This document shows positions 5,950-16,444 of a stretch of DNA of 59,462 bases, piece by piece; the stretch's first letter is position 1; every line of letters begins with the position of its first letter. This DNA is from Lachnospiraceae bacterium (GTDB lineage Bacteria > Bacillota > Clostridia > Lachnospirales > Lachnospiraceae), in NCBI GenBank assembly GCA_017561085.1, contig JAFZDQ010000131.1, positions 1 to 59,462 on the forward strand, written 5' to 3'. The position numbers and the translations under genes were made by a program. The notes below the pieces were generated by a model that had not been told where the DNA came from, searched no databases, and was given only the letters and a program-made list of their open reading frames with translations.

Positions 5950-6571
5950 ATCCGGCCAGCAGTTCCTCTGCTTCCCTACAGATGCTTTGGCATACGAGCC
6001 TGCGCATCTCTTCATTCCTGCAATTCTCTAAATTATAAGGATTGCTAAAGCTCATTCCGTAGCACAAAATACGGGAAATAGAGCTGTTTATTAAATACAA
6101 CATTTTTTCATTTGATACGGATTGCTCCCCGAATTCTTCCGTGATGGTAAGGCGCATCACATCCTCTACCATGATGGTATCAGCCGGCTTGCTTTCCATT
6201 AATTCCTTTAATCTTTTTCCGATGGTGCTGTTATCAGTCAGGATATGCACCAGACGGAAAATACAACTGCTCTCTCCTACTGCATTCTCCATATATAAAA
6301 GGATTCTCATCATTCGGTTCCTAAATCCCTGTTCTTCTTTGGAACTAAGATAAACCTCTTTACAAAACGCAGCAGTGTTAAAAAACAAAGCCTTGGCTAT
6401 CATTTCTTCTTTGTCTGAAAAGTAATCGTAAGCAGTTCCTTTGCCGATTCCTGCTTTTGCGGTAATTTGGGAAACAGTCAGATTGCTTAAATCCGCTCCC
6501 TCTTTAAAAAGCGTAATTACTGCATTATAAATCGCCTGTTCTTTGGATGGACATTCTGTTTTATTCATCAC
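5948..6571 (-). CDS. TetR/AcrR family transcriptional regulator
   Basis: A 207-residue regulator. The N-terminal helix-turn-helix reads LTVSQITAKAGIGKGTAYDYF (residues about 32-52), typical of the TetR family. The C-terminal ligand-binding region is helical and not recognisably similar to a named subgroup. Its start overlaps the end of the RND transporter gene by 11 bases, so the two are translationally linked and co-transcribed, with the regulator second. This arrangement plus a TetR-like dyad upstream of the RND gene suggests that it represses its own operon and is induced by a substrate of the pump. Target and ligand are inferred. Confidence 0.9.
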   Translation of the reverse strand: MMNKTECPSKEQAIYNAVITLFKEGADLSNLTVSQITAKAGIGKGTAYDYFSDKEEMIAKALFFNTAAFCKEVYLSSKEEQGFRNRMMRILLYMENAVGESSCIFRLVHILTDNSTIGKRLKELMESKPADTIMVEDVMRLTITEEFGEQSVSNEKMLYLINSSISRILCYGMSFSNPYNLENCRNEEMRRLVCQSICREAEELLAG

Positions 6572-9500
6572 AGCCCTCCACTACAACGCTTTCCGCCGCC
6601 TTTTTCTTTCCGAAACGCTTTCTTTCCTTCTTTTCTTTATTCTCACCTTTGGTAAAGATATCGTATACACAAGGAATTACAATCAGTGTAAGCAGTGTTC
6701 CGTAAATAAGACCGCCAATGGTTACCACTGACATGGGCTTACTTAAGTCTGCGCCCATATCATCACTAAATGCCATGGTACTAAGGGCCAAAATCGTAGT
6801 CAGTGCTGTCATTAATACGGGACGCATTCTGGTCCGGCCTGCTGTAATAATCGCCTCTTTTTTCGACATACCCTCTGCACGGAGCTGATTGATATAATCT
6901 ACCAATACGATACCGTTGTTTACAATAACACCGGATAACATAACGAAACCGATAATCGCAATTACACTGACCTCGCTACCGCTTAAATAAAGACCCATGA
7001 AACCGCCGGTAAAGGCCAGAGGAATGGTAAACATAATGATAAAGGGTGAAAGCAGGGACTGGAACTGCGCAACCATGATCAGATACATGAAAATCAATGC
7101 CAGCACAAGCATCAGCATCAGCTGCTCTATCGCTTCCATAATCATTTCGTTTTCACCGGTCATTCTGATCCTATATCCTGAAGGAGCCTGATAATCTTCC
7201 AGTGCTTTTTCAACATCCGCCGAAACAAGGCCGATGTTGTAACCGTCTGCGATTGCTGCAGATACTGCGACATATCTGGTCTGACTGCTTCTGTTAACGG
7301 ATTTAGGTGCAATGGTTTCTTCAAAGGTTGCAAGTTCTGTAAGGGGAACCGTTTCCTTGATACCATCCTGTTTCGTTCTTTCAATGTCAAGTTTCTTAAT
7401 CAACTCTCTGGTAAGTGCCATATCCTTGGCATGCTTTACATATACGTCATATTCTTTTAATTCGGTTTCTAACGTGGTAGCACTGGTTGCTTCCGCAATC
7501 TTCACCTGAATCTGCTGGAAAATCTGTGCTACGGTCAGACCGTGTTCAATTGCCTTCTGACGGTCTACAATGATACGCATTTCTCCGGTAGACTCTTCCA
7601 AGCCGTCCGATACTGCCTTGGTTCCTTCTACGCCCTCTACAATCGCTGCCACTTCCTTGGCAATTTCCTGTAAGGTATCCATATCACGGCCCTCTATCTG
7701 CACGGAAATACCGCTGCCACCCAGCGCACTCATATCCATTGTTGAAGTCTGAATGGAAAGTTCTGCCTGGTTTTCCTCTAAAAATGCCGCAAAATTCTTT
7801 TCAATTTCTGATGCCAGTTCTACATTGTCCTTCGTCTTATTTTCATCTAATGTCAGATAAAAGGTAGTCGAATTGGTTGCGGAATTTCCGCCGCCTGTCA
7901 GCATTCCCATAGAAGAATCACTGGCCATGGCGCCTACATCAGACACTTCCGGCATCTCCATCAAACGCGCCACCATTTCATCCGAAACTTCACCGGTTTC
8001 CGTAAGCGGTGTATCCTTGGGCAGCGTTAATGTTATGGTCATCTGCGGACTGTCCATTTCAGGCATAAAAGCAGTACCTCTGGATATTGCCAGTAATGCA
8101 CTGACTACCGTTAATACCAAAACTACAATCAGTACAACAGGTTTCAGTTTCAAACATCCGCCTAAAAATTTCTCGTAACCATCCATCACTTTGGAGAAAA
8201 TCTTGCTCTCCTTTTGTTCCTTTGCCGTCACCATGGTCTTAGATGCCATAGCAGGCACTACCGTAAGTGCTACGAAGAGACTGGCCATTAAGGAATATGC
8301 AAAGGTAAGTCCCATATCCACAAATAACTGTCTGGTGATACCTTCCGTAAATACAATCGGTAAGAATACACATACTGTGGTTAAAGTGGATGCCAGAATC
8401 GCACCCGCTACTTCATTGGCACCTTCGATAGCTGCTTCCTTGGCGGAATAACCAAGACTCTTCAAACGGTAGATATTTTCAATCACTACGATTGAGTTAT
8501 CCACCAGCATACCTACGCCCAGCGCAAGACCGGATAAGGAAATTACATTTAGTGTAACACCGCTGAAATACATACAAACCACAGCCGCAATCAAACTGAT
8601 GGGAATGGAGCATGCAACCACTGCGGTAGGTCTTAAATCCTTTAAGAAGATCAATAAAATCAGTACAGCCAGAATACCACCGAAAAGAACATTTCCGATG
8701 ATGGAATCCATAACCAAATCAATAAAGATTCCCTGGTCCATCAGTGTAATCAGCATTAAGTTCTCATCTGCCTCGGTCAGTTCTTCAAAACGTTCCAAGA
8801 TTCTGTCGGACACATCACCGGTGGAATAACCGGTCTGCTTCTGCATAGAAACCATAATACCGGGTTCCCCGTTTACGTTGGCATAGATTTCGTCAGAGTT
8901 ATCTGTCATAAATACGTCTGCCACGTCTCCTAAGGTTACGATATCCACACCTTCCATTTCGGTATTTAACAAAGGCATCTGCTTCAGGGTTTCGATATCC
9001 TTCGGCTTATCTCCTACTCTGATTAAGTAGTCAATCCCTTCCTCTGTTACATAACCGCCGGGCATGGAGAAATTCTGTGCCATTAACAGACTGCTTACTG
9101 TTTCTACGGTTAAAATACCATGCATATCCGCCTGGGCATAAGCATCCTCCCTGGCTTCTTCAATCTGCTCTTCACCGTCTAAAATCTGCTGCATGGCATC
9201 TTCTAACTGCTTCGCAGAATCCTCTAACTGCTTTTCTCCGTCCGCAATCTGTTCCCAGCCTGCATCAATCTGCTCCTGTCCGCTGTCAAGCTGCTCCTGT
9301 CCTGCTTTAATCTGCTCCTCTGAAGCTTCTAACTGGGTTTCTGCCGCAGTCAGCTGGGTTTCTGTAAGGGTAATCGTGGTCTGGGCATTGGAAAACTCAA
9401 TGGCCGCTGTCAGATTTCCCGCATATAATTCTTTTAATGCTTTGTCTAACTTTTCAATCTGTGATTCTAATTCCGATAACTGACTTTTATAGGTCTTAAT

Positions 9501-10862
9501 CAGGGCCTGATTCTGGGTTACCGTAGCACTTAATTCCTGCTTCTGGGCTTCCAGACCGGCTTTCTTCGTATTCAGCTCTTCTATCTGGGCTTCTAAAGCC
9601 GCCTTATCCGTTTCGGGAAGCATGGAAGTAATTCCTGCCACAATCACGTTTACCGGCACGTCGTCCATAAAGTCCGGATTCATCGCTTTTAAGGTGCTTT
9701 GTAAGTCCGCAGGTAAGTCAGCCAGCACTGCGTCCGGATTTGCCTCTAAAACGCTGTTTAAACTGTTTATAAGGGCATTTAAGGACTCAATCTGTGCAAT
9801 CCCTGCCTGAATCTCGGCAATACCGTCATCAACGGCTTTAATTCCGTCGTCAATCTGCTTAATTGCTTTGTTCAGTTCTTTGTTGGTCGCTTCCAGGATA
9901 CTCATTTCCGTGGACATGTGTACCTTGGCCGCTTCTGCATCTGCCTTTGCTGTAAGGAGCTGGGTTTCACCCTCAGCCAGTTTCTTTGCCGTTTCCTCTT
10001 TCTTGTCGGCAAGTTCCTTTTTGCCTTCCTCTAACTTGGTCTTACCGTCGGCAAGCTCTGCTTTACCGTCCGCAATTTCCTTCTTACCGTCCTCCAGTTC
10101 CTGTCTGCTGTCGTCTAACTGCTTCTGACTGTCAAGAAGGTCCTGTTTGGAGGAATTCATCTCTTTACGGGCATCTGCCAGTTCAGACTGTCCGTCCAGG
10201 ATTTCCTGTTTGCTTTCCTGCAGGTCTGCAATGGCTTCTTCCATTTCCTCATCAATAGAACCAAAAACCTGCTTGTTGATTTCATCTATCTTTTCCTGTC
10301 TGATAATGACATGGACACTTTCCTTCAAAAGACCCGTAGCACTGGCTGACGCAACACCTTCTATACTTTCCAGTTCGGGAATAATGGTATTCTGGGTATA
10401 TTCACTGACCTCTGCGGTATCCATTCCTTCATAACCTACGGCAGCAATCATAACCGGCAACATATCCGGATTTAATTTCATAATAATGGGACTGCCGATA
10501 GAATCGTCCCAGTAGCTCTTAATCTGGTCCAGGTTTTCCCTGATTTCCAGGGATACGCCGTTCATATCCGCAGACTGGGCAAACTCCAGGATAACCATGG
10601 AATAATTTTCACTGGAAACAGAGCTGATTCCTTCGATATTGCTGACTGTCGCCATAGATGCTTCAACAGGCTTGGTTACCACCATTTCTACCGTTTCCGG
10701 GCTGGCTCCCGGATAAGTGGTCATAACAATCACATAAGGAAGACTGATATTGGGTAAAAGGTCCGTGGACATCTTCATAAAAGATACCACACCAAGGACA
10801 ATGACCAGTATCACTGCTACCAATACCGTATACGCTTTCTTTACACTTAACTTTGCTAACAT
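6561..10862 (-). CDS. RND-family (HAE1-type) efflux permease with a long coiled-coil insertion
   Basis: A 1433-residue permease. The ATG at 10862 is chosen because AGAGGTG precedes it and the following MLAKLSVKKAYTVLVAVIL fits a normal RND N-terminus. A longer reading from 10997 would start inside a terminator hairpin. The first membrane helix is at 12-29 and the family motif GVGMLVDNSIVVIENI at 782-797. C-terminal helices and a second porter region follow. AcrB-like proteins have about 1030 residues; the excess is a segment at about 205-575 that is almost pure heptad repeat (ADGKAEL, ADGKTKL, EEGKKEL and similar) placed in the first outer loop. No adaptor or outer-membrane channel gene lies nearby, as expected for a Gram-positive cell. 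Substrate unknown; drug, lipid or fatty-acid export are options. Confidence 0.9.
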   Translation of the reverse strand: MLAKLSVKKAYTVLVAVILVIVLGVVSFMKMSTDLLPNISLPYVIVMTTYPGASPETVEMVVTKPVEASMATVSNIEGISSVSSENYSMVILEFAQSADMNGVSLEIRENLDQIKSYWDDSIGSPIIMKLNPDMLPVMIAAVGYEGMDTAEVSEYTQNTIIPELESIEGVASASATGLLKESVHVIIRQEKIDEINKQVFGSIDEEMEEAIADLQESKQEILDGQSELADARKEMNSSKQDLLDSQKQLDDSRQELEDGKKEIADGKAELADGKTKLEEGKKELADKKEETAKKLAEGETQLLTAKADAEAAKVHMSTEMSILEATNKELNKAIKQIDDGIKAVDDGIAEIQAGIAQIESLNALINSLNSVLEANPDAVLADLPADLQSTLKAMNPDFMDDVPVNVIVAGITSMLPETDKAALEAQIEELNTKKAGLEAQKQELSATVTQNQALIKTYKSQLSELESQIEKLDKALKELYAGNLTAAIEFSNAQTTITLTETQLTAAETQLEASEEQIKAGQEQLDSGQEQIDAGWEQIADGEKQLEDSAKQLEDAMQQILDGEEQIEEAREDAYAQADMHGILTVETVSSLLMAQNFSMPGGYVTEEGIDYLIRVGDKPKDIETLKQMPLLNTEMEGVDIVTLGDVADVFMTDNSDEIYANVNGEPGIMVSMQKQTGYSTGDVSDRILERFEELTEADENLMLITLMDQGIFIDLVMDSIIGNVLFGGILAVLILLIFLKDLRPTAVVACSIPISLIAAVVCMYFSGVTLNVISLSGLALGVGMLVDNSIVVIENIYRLKSLGYSAKEAAIEGANEVAGAILASTLTTVCVFLPIVFTEGITRQLFVDMGLTFAYSLMASLFVALTVVPAMASKTMVTAKEQKESKIFSKVMDGYEKFLGGCLKLKPVVLIVVLVLTVVSALLAISRGTAFMPEMDSPQMTITLTLPKDTPLTETGEVSDEMVARLMEMPEVSDVGAMASDSSMGMLTGGGNSATNSTTFYLTLDENKTKDNVELASEIEKNFAAFLEENQAELSIQTSTMDMSALGGSGISVQIEGRDMDTLQEIAKEVAAIVEGVEGTKAVSDGLEESTGEMRIIVDRQKAIEHGLTVAQIFQQIQVKIAEATSATTLETELKEYDVYVKHAKDMALTRELIKKLDIERTKQDGIKETVPLTELATFEETIAPKSVNRSSQTRYVAVSAAIADGYNIGLVSADVEKALEDYQAPSGYRIRMTGENEMIMEAIEQLMLMLVLALIFMYLIMVAQFQSLLSPFIIMFTIPLAFTGGFMGLYLSGSEVSVIAIIGFVMLSGVIVNNGIVLVDYINQLRAEGMSKKEAIITAGRTRMRPVLMTALTTILALSTMAFSDDMGADLSKPMSVVTIGGLIYGTLLTLIVIPCVYDIFTKGENKEKKERKRFGKKKAAESVVVEGCDE

Positions 10863-10905
10863 GCACACACCTCTTATGATAAATTTTCCTCTCTGAGGAA
10901 TACTA

Positions 10906-10934
10906 AAATTACTGTTTTTTCTTTTGGTTTTCAA
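10906..10934 (-). promoter_or_regulatory. Possible promoter of the RND-TetR operon
   Basis: TTGAAA (10934-10929) and TAATTT (10911-10906) with 17-base spacing. The -10 is poor, so this is a tentative placement, supported by the dyad directly upstream. Confidence 0.35.
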
Positions 10935-10938
10935 AACC

Positions 10939-10952
10939 GACCGACTGGTCGG
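10939..10952. promoter_or_regulatory. Candidate TetR operator dyad
   Basis: GACCGACTGGTCGG contains CCGAC-TG-GTCGG, an inverted repeat of the kind bound by TetR/AcrR proteins such as FadR- and QacR-like regulators. It abuts the -35 of the proposed RND promoter and is 77 bases upstream of the RND start codon. The co-operonic TetR protein is the obvious candidate ligand. Confidence 0.6.
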
Positions 10953-10963
10953 ACACTCACCAA

Positions 10964-11008
10964 AAAAGAGTATATTGACTGTTTTAAGAATTGTCAATAT
11001 ACTCTTTT
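10964..11008 (-). terminator. Terminator of the cysE-sigH operon
   Basis: A perfect 16-bp stem (10964-10979 with 10993-11008) has a 13-base loop. On the minus strand it is followed by a run of T. It lies 34 bases after the sigH stop codon and isolates this operon from the RND gene. Confidence 0.9.
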
Positions 11009-14373: not shown

Positions 14374-15021
14374 CTACTTTTTCAGCTGCATTTCTTCAAG
14401 CTTCTTCTCAAGAGAAACCAGCCTGTTTTCTAACGCGGTCAGTTCTTCCTGTACCGGGTCGGGAAGGTGAATCTGATCCAGTTCTTCCTGGGGGAAGTTT
14501 TGCTTGATACGCTTCACCACATGCCCGGGAACACCTACTACCGTGGAACCGGGAGGTACATCGGAGAGCACCACGCTTCCGGCACCGATTTTGGAATTAT
14601 CTCCGATATAACAGGACCCCAAAACCTTCGCACCTGCCCCTACCATGATATTATTTCCCAAGGTAGGATGTCGCTTACCCTGCTCTTTACCGGTACCGCC
14701 TAAGGTCACTCCCTGATAAAGAGTTACGTTGTCACCAATGATGGTGGTTTCTCCTATGATAACGCCGTTGCCGTGGTCAATGAAAAATCCTTTTCCGATT
14801 TCGGCACCGGGATGAATTTCAATTCCTGTTTTCCTAACTGCACGCTGGGAAATATATCTTGCAAAGAAATATCTTCCCTTTTTGTACAGTTTGTGAGCCA
14901 GCCTGTAATGTACCATGGCCTTGAAGCTGGGATACAACAGCACTTCCATGGAAGAATGGATGGCCGGGTCCCTCTCACGGATGATGGCTACCTCTTCTTT
15001 AATATTTTTGAAAAATCCCAT
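14374..15021 (-). CDS. cysE: Serine O-acetyltransferase
   Basis: A 215-residue left-handed beta-helix acetyltransferase. A helical N-terminus (IRERDPAIHSSMEVLLYPSFKA) leads into hexapeptide repeats: EIHPGAEIGKGFFIDHG, VIIGETTIIGDNVTLYQG, then TLGGTG with KRHPTLGNNIMVGAGAKVLG. The catalytic Asp-His pair of the family (FIDHGNG) is present. It makes O-acetylserine from serine and acetyl-CoA, the carbon skeleton for cysteine. The ATG at 15021 has GAGG upstream. It is the first gene of the T-box operon, separated from the T-box terminator by a 514-base leader with six dyads. A short coiled tail ends the protein. Confidence 0.96.
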   Translation of the reverse strand: MGFFKNIKEEVAIIRERDPAIHSSMEVLLYPSFKAMVHYRLAHKLYKKGRYFFARYISQRAVRKTGIEIHPGAEIGKGFFIDHGNGVIIGETTIIGDNVTLYQGVTLGGTGKEQGKRHPTLGNNIMVGAGAKVLGSCYIGDNSKIGAGSVVLSDVPPGSTVVGVPGHVVKRIKQNFPQEELDQIHLPDPVQEELTALENRLVSLEKKLEEMQLKK

Positions 15022-15090: not shown

Positions 15091-15433
15091 CCCAACAATT
15101 CTTGAATTTTCTCCATTTCGTTGGGACTGATTTTTTGCACCCATCCCAACAAATACTGCTTTCTCCTTATATAGTTGGGACTTTTTGATTGTTAAAAAAA
15201 CTTGTCACCCAACTTTTTCATAATTTCTTACATTTTGTTGGGACGCTAAATTACTTTTAAGCATTTATTTTATCGTTTTGACCCAACATTTCTTGAATTT
15301 CATTTGTTTCGTTGGTACGTCCATTTTTTTAGGATACCAACTTATATTGAATATATAGCAATATGTTGGGACATGACTATTTTTGAAGCCCAAATTCACC
15401 CAACTTATTTATTACTTATTTCATTTCGTTGGG
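15091..15433. repeat. Array of six 35-bp CCCAAC-N23-GTTGGG dyads in the cysE leader
   Basis: Six elements, each exactly 35 bp long, lie at 15091-15125, 15145-15179, 15208-15242, 15282-15316, 15336-15370 and 15399-15433. Each starts with CCCAAC (ACCAAC in the fifth) and ends with GTTGGG (GTTGGT in the fourth), followed by AC. The interiors are AT-rich and only loosely alike. Gaps are 19, 28, 39, 19 and 28 bases, so elements 1-3 and 4-6 are two triplets offset by exactly 191 bp, an old tandem duplication. The array lies inside the transcript between the T-box terminator and cysE. Neighbouring arms can also pair across the gaps. It is not a CRISPR. Function unknown. Confidence 0.9.
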
Positions 15434-15534: not shown

Positions 15535-15863
15535 AATAAAAAAAGGATAACTCAGTCTTAGAGACGAAGTTATCCGCGGTTCCACTCTACTAGAGACATA
15601 TTACTGCCTCCACTCAATTGACGTAACGTGTCATAGACGTACCCTGCTACTTACCGATTATCTGACATTCTTCAGCCCAAGGCACTCTTGCTGCCATGCA
15701 CCGAAAAATCAAACTATGTTTCACAGAATCTGCTCCCGGACGCACTTCTATTATCCTCCTGCAGGAATGCTTTCAGCCGATGACACTCCCTCTCTGTGCC
15801 GGATGCCCCAAAACGGTGCGCAATAATATACTCTTTCCGTTCATTGCATTTATCAATGTTTAC
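15535..15863 (-). ncRNA. T-box riboswitch leader, probably cysteine-specific
   Basis: The minus strand carries the T-box core AGAGTGGAACCGCGG at 15588-15574, the sequence that binds the unpaired tRNA 3' end. An intrinsic terminator follows at once. A Stem I region with an AGAGAG element lies upstream. In its 3' half, GAAGTGCG places a possible specifier codon TGC (cysteine) at 15744-15742. The downstream genes cysE and cysS fit cysteine. Transcription likely starts near 15863 from the promoter at 15870-15898. Uncharged tRNA-Cys would stabilise the antiterminator and allow read-through. The T-box itself is certain; the specifier is read by eye and is less so. Confidence 0.93.
15538..15575 (-). 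terminator. T-box regulatory terminator
   Basis: The stem GGATAACT / AGTTATCC (15545-15552 with 15568-15575) has an inner GTCT / AGAC helix and is followed on the minus strand by TTTTTTT. Its 5' arm overlaps the T-box antiterminator sequence, so the two structures are mutually exclusive. Confidence 0.9.
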
Positions 15864-15901: not shown

Positions 15902-16444
15902 TTATTTTGCCTTACAGCCGCTGCACCCCTGACATTTCGCCGTATCTGTCACATCCTCAAAGGAAACTCCCACAGGACTTGTTAAAAGACAGATTGCCTG
16001 GGCACTGATACCCTCACCGCTTCCGGTAAAACCAAGGCCCTCTTCGGTAGTCGCCTTTACATTCACCTGCTCAATCATAATACCAAGCTCCGCCGCAATA
16101 TTGGCACGCATGGTATCAATATGGGGTCGCATTTTGGGCGCCTGTGCAATGATGGTGGCATCAATGTTTTCAATATAAAAACAATTTTCCTCCAAAAGTC
16201 TGCCGACCTCTCCTAAAAGCTTCAGGGATGAGATTCCTTTGTACGCAGGGTCCGTATCCGGAAAATGCTTACCGATATCCCCAAGGGCTGCCGCGCCTAA
16301 CAGGGCATCCATAATGGCATGAAGCAGCACGTCCGCATCGGAATGACCAAGGAGCCCTTTTTCATAAGGGATTTCCACGCCGCCCATAATTAACTTCCGT
16401 CCTTCTGTTAAACGATGTACATCATAGCCCATTCCGATTCTCAT
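15902..16444 (-). CDS. ispF: 2-C-methyl-D-erythritol 2,4-cyclodiphosphate synthase with a cysteine tail
   Basis: A 180-residue enzyme of the MEP isoprenoid pathway. [12 protein letters not shown] gives metal ligands Asp8 and His10; the third ligand is His41 after [19 protein letters not shown] and the C-terminal [23 protein letters not shown] are the usual substrate-site blocks. It cyclises CDP-methylerythritol phosphate to the 2,4-cyclodiphosphate with release of CMP. Typical IspF proteins stop near residue 158. Here about 20 extra residues end in [11 protein letters not shown], with cysteines at 171, 174 and 177 spaced CxxCxxC. In B. subtilis ispF also lies near cysE-cysS, so the location is conserved. 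An extended -10 (TGATATAAT, core 16532-16527) may drive it. Confidence 0.96.

Follow-up and report, generated by a model that had tools for sequence, protein, structure and literature searches.

Arrays of inverted RTTGG half-sites repeating at whole helical turns in scattered Lachnospiraceae genomes: predicted docking sites for an oligomeric DNA-binding protein

A row of six inverted repeats in the genome of a Lachnospiraceae bacterium (GCA_017561085.1) belongs to a family of arrays whose elements follow one another at whole numbers of DNA turns, and we consider that such an array is probably a row of predicted sites at which an oligomeric protein would bind double-stranded DNA. The element would be a pair of inverted RTTGG half-sites with an A-rich centre and 22-24 bp between them. 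Explanations of bacterial intergenic repeats usually invoke RNA stems or mobile debris; here the spacing itself carries a signal, in that steps of one helical turn are kept while the sequence drifts, and this is comparative evidence for assembly on one face of the DNA. No description of these arrays was found in the literature searched, most subscription journals lying outside its reach.

The window, that is, the whole stretch of 59,462 nt analysed here (contig JAFZDQ010000131.1, forward strand), contains the six dyads listed in Table 1. Their number and successive distances had been given correctly in a first-pass annotation of this DNA (four dyads are exact and two have one changed base), as had the 191-bp offset between two blocks of three elements and the position of the array between a T-box upstream and the cysE reading frame downstream. 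When the gap was left free between 20 and 26 bp, four exact CCCAAC/GTTGGG dyads were recovered from the window, compared with none in 100 shuffles. With the arms left aside, identity between the two blocks reaches 49.1% (106 positions), whereas 89 other offsets give a mean of 31.3% (sd 4.4, maximum 42.5), so that the recurrence of the spacing within the window is explicable by an old duplication of a block; by appearance, the two blocks look like an old duplication of three units. The variant arms of elements 4 (right) and 5 (left) had been read as a change compensated between elements: the two arms are indeed complementary, but they are just one of the five neighbouring arm pairs changed at that base in this genome, and the four in C27 are uncompensated. 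Elsewhere in the window, positions 6561-10997 of the minus strand hold a transporter-like ORF of 1478 aa with a long, repetitive, coiled-coil-like insert.

Table 1. Array elements and neighbouring features in the window, with the places of the element in the whole genome.
Feature	Position	Strand	Remarks
Dyad element 1	15091..15125	.	exact CCCAAC-N23-GTTGGG
Dyad element 2	15145..15179	.	exact match; 54 bp from element 1
Dyad element 3	15208..15242	.	exact match; 63 bp from element 2
Dyad element 4	15282..15316	.	one changed base, right arm GTTGGT; 74 bp from element 3
Dyad element 5	15336..15370	.	one changed base, left arm ACCAAC; 54 bp from element 4
Dyad element 6	15399..15433	.	exact match; 63 bp from element 5
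T-box leader upstream of cysE	15557..15853	-	Rfam RF00230, 101.6 bits against a gathering score of 93; context, outside the array
cysE (serine O-acetyltransferase)	14374..15021	-	215-aa ORF, first gene downstream of the array; name by reading the protein
ispF, upstream gene	15902..16444	-	180-aa ORF; name by reading the protein; context
Whole genome: 16 elements at four places			C11 six, C27 seven, C31 two, C122 one; N23 imposed

The element is dispersed in this genome. A relaxed search with N23 imposed returned 19 forward places, namely the 16 elements of Table 1 and three isolated ones, against three places in the reversed control; one of the three places outside the window array stands upstream of a pyrC-like gene, named by reading of the protein. 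Among the same-genus genomes, cysE was matched in 37 of 37, and 30 of the 37 loci were taken for comparison of the leaders. A scan for repeated exact six-base dyads did not find the array in the 29 other leaders, three of whose upstream stretches were shorter than 700 bases, and other repeated dyads turned up in two of the 29; of the 18 relatives put through Rfam, 16 have a T-box before cysE, and the array was seen in none of these. By the relaxed pattern, arrays are present in one of the 37 same-genus genomes, while single dyads with the same gap occur in seven others, one or two in each, with one mismatch and never clustered. The array does sit between a T-box and cysE, as an operator specific for cysE or for sulphur metabolism would require, but its recurrence in three other places of the genome, one of them before the pyrC-like gene, and its absence from the 29 other leaders scanned make such an operator very improbable. 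We have dropped it as a candidate, and with it the tie to cysE proposed in the first-pass annotation, whose alternative of a multi-site operator survives only in the broad sense of an array that would bind protein. It follows that an insert between a T-box and a gene need not belong to that regulation. The T-box-to-cysE gap is also occupied by other sequences: a TwoAYGGAY RNA lies inside it in one relative (L061:2290-2456), and in L068 the same gap holds, within about 400 bp upstream of cysE, near-identical tandem repeats of 108 bp with inverted arms of their own.

Arrays of the same kind were sought with a four-arm pattern in genome contigs of 84,980 species (figure from the tool description), and 27 stretches were returned, of which 14, in seven Lachnospiraceae MAGs, are arrays with a period of mostly 53. 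One of the remainder (L097) looks like a plain 72-bp duplication and was dropped, as were 12 that look unrelated by spacing, context or source; three loci taken on single matches (L134, L145 and L147) gave no array and were dropped too. Viral contigs yielded one match, which is not an array. An element finder that admits up to two changes in the ten core bases and a gap of 22-24, and that chains elements near 53, 63.5 or 74 bp, yielded a table of 222 elements belonging to 37 arrays in nine genomes, each genome contributing 4-61 of them, an incomplete count; the single C122 element was left out, and the patterns by which loci were found admit element distances of about 47-79 bp, so that wider arrays could be missed. 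The distribution is sparse: arrays occur in two of 397 genomes of the family, the second of which shares contig places with the genome behind L088, and in two of four genomes of a second genus.

The gap between the arms is kept wherever it was left free to vary. In this genome, 9 of the 11 forward places found with a free gap of 15-40 have N23. In the seven MAGs, searched with CCAACTA-N{4,34}-TAGTTGG, 34 forward places were found in five of them, with N19 (equal to N23 between the five-base cores) in 29, N20 in four and N16 in one, so that 33 of the 34 have a core gap of 23 or 24. These recoveries of the 23-bp spacing bear out the earlier claim that the arm spacing is under selection. A control dyad, TCCCAAC-N{8,38}-GTTGGGA, was present in 23 of 200 genomes representing different genera of the family; among the 199 genomes of other genera, N23 accounts for two of 24 forward places, compared with five of five in this genome. 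Within the table, where gaps of 22-24 were admitted, the gap is 23 in 182 of the 222 elements, 22 in 23 and 24 in 17, and it is 23 in all 15 tabulated elements of this genome.

For the distances between elements, every CCAAY-N22..24-RTTGG dyad of the 37 loci was taken, and successive distances below 200 bp were recorded with no other constraint on element distance. The 163 neighbour distances are 52 (15 cases), 53 (110), 54 (18), 63 (5), 64 (4), 74 (1), 85 (2), 105 (2), 106 (3), 159 (2) and 161 (1) bp; every one of them belongs to the classes 52-54, 63-64, 74 or 85 bp or is two or three such steps, and none falls between classes. A helical turn of 10.60 bp places the class centres of 53, 63.5, 74 and 85 bp at 5, 6, 7 and 8 turns (rms deviation 0.15 bp), the distances other than 53 resting on few independent events: the 85-bp step comes from two loci of one genome, and the 63-64 steps come from three loci of this genome, whose spacers are partly alike by eye and whose 63s may share one ancestor. 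Inner and outer gaps vary in opposite senses (r = -0.27, n = 174), their standard deviations being 0.43 and 0.44 and that of their sum 0.52. In six loci (L129, L136, L138, L139, L098 and L111) units of different types alternate when judged by eye, which gives a higher-order repeat of about 106 bp (ten helical turns).

The mechanism that we propose reads as follows. A dimeric or tetrameric protein would bind each element through its two RTTGG half-sites, and with elements 5, 6, 7 or 8 turns apart the dimers, once bound, would share one face of the DNA, where they could touch their neighbours; it is because the elements repeat at whole turns that the protein is proposed to stack in this manner. 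Local tandem duplication would enlarge an array, after which the sequence between the arms would drift while the arms and the helical register were kept. The product would be a local nucleoprotein structure acting as a boundary, in silencing or as a roadblock, rather than in the control of one pathway. Binding by the protein, its cooperativity and the structure resulting from it are what we infer from the arrangement of the sites.

In the pooled half-site RTTGG, each base of TTGG is present in 95-99% and R in 98%, a result that the finder favours. An extension to RTTGGNA is restricted to this genome, G236 and G237, where the final A reaches 78-85%; that position is mostly T in G439 and mixed in G238-G242, and RTTGGNA was accordingly discarded as a general consensus. 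On the inner side of the core, the adjoining base is in most cases symmetric and particular to a lineage (T/A in G236-G240, A/T in G241), and the arm extensions likewise differ mostly by lineage with both arms alike, namely CCAACTAA/TTAGTTGG, CCAACAAA/TTTGTTGG and TGTCCCAAC/GTTGGGACA. In its middle the gap consists of an A-tract, with 69-83% A at positions 10-13.

What lies between the arms behaves very differently. In 80 pairs of adjacent duplicate units with at least 45% interior identity, differences amount to 5.7% in the arms, 28.5% inside and 39.2% outside, the finder favouring the arms. For 120 units, none from this genome, the 43-nt interiors plus spacers are 64.1% alike within one array, 43.2% across loci of one genome (99th percentile 0.628) and 40.0% across genomes (0.628), compared with 41.3% (0.581) after shuffling of the columns. 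Within one genome, interiors taken from different loci resemble each other scarcely more than those of different genomes do, so that most arrays at different loci are, judged by sequence, not recent copies of one another, yet arms and length are common to them; G238 has a few closer pairs, the best match elsewhere in the genome averaging 0.638 against 0.590 in other genomes, with a maximum of 0.814. The likeness of units within an array suggests that arrays grow by duplication. The simplest cause of common arms and length combined with nearly unrelated interiors would be a reader acting in trans. It might be objected that these are neutral tandem repeats whose arms look conserved since the search selects them, the finder tolerating no more than two changes in ten core bases and adjacent units being often duplicates; however, the arm gap is recovered with free gaps and the element distance with free distances, and the length of interiors whose similarity is close to chance stays constant to within about 1 bp, all of which renders this account quite improbable.

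The first-pass annotation had suggested, as one of two readings, an RNA able to fold in two registers. In an RNA element, each dyad would fold into a hairpin within a leader or a 3' region, or the arms would pair alternately across gaps; the window array should be transcribed on T-box read-through, and an array of another species (L105) likewise lies between a T-box and a thrS-like gene. Folding z-scores against shuffles are -4.1 and -3.9 for the two strands of the window array, -14.2 for L110 and -6.4 for L143 (three arrays, four folds), and folds better than shuffled ones are expected of any set of inverted repeats; against an RNA element, neither window strand folds better than the other, and the arms pair across elements. 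Counted over the 222 elements, the last core pair is C/G in 151, T/G in 26, C/A in 25, T/A in 17 and other pairs in three, the half-site changes being symmetric (C>T on the left in 44, G>A on the right in 42). With all elements pooled there is an association between the two bases (Fisher p = 0.0004), a point for the RNA element, but within loci T/A is found 17 times against 13.9 expected, so the pooled association arises mostly between loci. A symmetric arm change by lineage would fit a hairpin as well as a protein site.

Within loci, Watson-Crick pairs are in excess at none of the five pairs of the core (z from -0.43 to 1.42, with two of the pairs invariant); outside the core, 3 of 12 pairs go beyond 1, with z of -1.05, -2.21 (a deficit) and 2.82 (a within-locus excess). 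On the coding strand of the 23 codirectional loci (138 elements), T/G and C/A occur 15 and 11 times (p = 0.56), and core departures leave a wobble pair in 18 cases and a mismatch in 23, counts such as half-sites that change symmetrically and independently on double-stranded DNA would give. At gathering score, no Rfam family was found on the array in the window or on those of 12 array loci, the hits falling outside the arrays. The lack of compensation within elements and of a preference for wobble pairs favours double-stranded half-sites over RNA hairpins, and these two results, together with a spacing by the DNA turn, led us to reject the two-register switch as first choice; an RNA element of any of these kinds appears improbable, if marginally less so than neutral repeats.

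All 37 arrays lie between mechanically called ORFs of at least 90 aa; 10 overlap a further ORF and 5 overlap a flanking ORF by up to 25 bp, and for arrays overlapping an ORF an intergenic placement is likely. By the same mechanical ORFs the flanking genes are codirectional in 23 cases, divergent in seven and convergent in four, with three left unassigned. Reading of the flanking genes revealed no apparent theme, and in the neighbour-gene comparison no gene family beside the arrays was common to all nine genomes, the widest, ABC-transporter-like by reading, being present in six; on this ground the product of a neighbouring gene was set aside as the binder. In 17 of the 23 codirectional loci the coding strand is the one rich in A (p = 0.035), the coding-strand A:T ratio being 2923:1863 in the arrays and 668:550 in the 40-nt flanks. 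A strict coupling of strand to transcription, which 13 of 14 loci judged by eye had suggested, was abandoned when inclusion of all codirectional loci lowered the proportion to these 17 of 23. A symmetric DNA site has no need of such a strand bias, which thus counts against our preferred explanation.

The main rival takes the arrays for mobile or selfish repeats akin to REP/BIME, in which the arms would be transposase or recombinase sites that spread and amplify the units without any service to the host. Arrays are dispersed, mostly intergenic and patchy within genera; the cysE gap lacks the array in the 29 other same-genus leaders scanned; six arrays are, by eye, of alternating unit types, with a repeat of about 106 bp; and 13 of the 27 arrays with a gene end facing them lie, in our tally, no more than 60 bp from that end, REPs being known to favour gene ends. 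Such a repeat nonetheless leaves two observations unaccounted for: outside the arms, units of different loci are hardly more alike than units of different genomes (a comparison that does not include this genome and that shows some excess in G238), and nothing in a transposase explains steps of one helical turn. We therefore hold a mobile repeat to be unlikely, though by no means negligible.

The comparison with REP/BIME can be made more closely. According to PMC2817692, these are short, dispersed, extragenic and regularly spaced sequences in alternating orientation, BIMEs being described as protein-binding sites. The arrays resemble them in being extragenic (a likely placement for those that overlap ORFs) and present in multiple copies per genome. 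They differ in several respects: consensus half-site and flanks have no GTAG, which stands by the palindrome in the REP examples of PMC2817692; arms of 5-9 bp enclose 22-24 bp of mostly non-palindromic, A-rich DNA in place of a stem with a short loop; this core gap exceeds the default loop of at most 11 nt that PMC12306157 gives for RepRanger, and hence falls outside a short-loop palindrome; the tabulated copies number 4-61 per genome, an incomplete count, against usually more than 100; and the interiors are nearly unrelated between loci.

If binding sites on double-stranded DNA remain the preferred interpretation, a bolder version of it can be put forward tentatively, as a possibility that we would not yet bet on: a lineage-specific protein would read the RTTGG pairs, polymerising on intergenic DNA or wrapping along it at whole turns, and would co-evolve in specificity with its sites across a genome; the arrays would form a class of chromosomal docking arrays in sparsely scattered Lachnospiraceae species. 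The patchy distribution (1 of 37 genomes in the same genus, 2 of 397 in the family, 2 of 4 in the second genus) would be odd for a chromosome-organising system and counts against the preferred interpretation as a whole. Were the proposal true, nature would have supplied many variants, with 5, 6, 7 and 8 turns and three arm types, for finding the protein and testing its assembly.

Other known systems share single features with the arrays. The CCAAC/GTTGG cores recall the RYYYAAC/GTTRRRY of integron attC sites, as given in PMC3053210, but the units measure 33-41 bp against 57-141 bp for attC and have no gene cassettes between them. Where the attC core requires R and then Y after GTTGG, the first base is T in 45% and G in 37% and the second A in 56% and T in 21% of the pooled half-sites; attC was ruled out on core bases and length. 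A CRISPR array was also ruled out on sequence, since the conserved parts here are 5-9 bp in alternating orientation, where CRISPR would show direct repeats that are almost identical and are separated by unique spacers. In this genome, G236 and G237 the half-site includes the TGGNA motif that PMC9598496 gives for AbrB-type proteins; the A is not general, however, the arrays consist of long inverted pairs in phase, and TGGNA is short enough to occur by chance. AbrB is no more than a guess at a possible binder. The T-box (RF00230) adjoins an array both in the window and in L105 and is a separate element; in L105 (6409-6632 and 6724-7021), the array lies between a borderline T-box (93.4 bits, gathering score 93) and the thrS-like gene, so named by reading. 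This second adjacency is possibly a coincidence or possibly the sign of a preferred landing place. In a further genome a TwoAYGGAY RNA (L091:6431-6597) lies about 120 bp from an array, and in L090 and L174 arrays occupy two different gaps of what is seemingly one gene cluster in two genomes.
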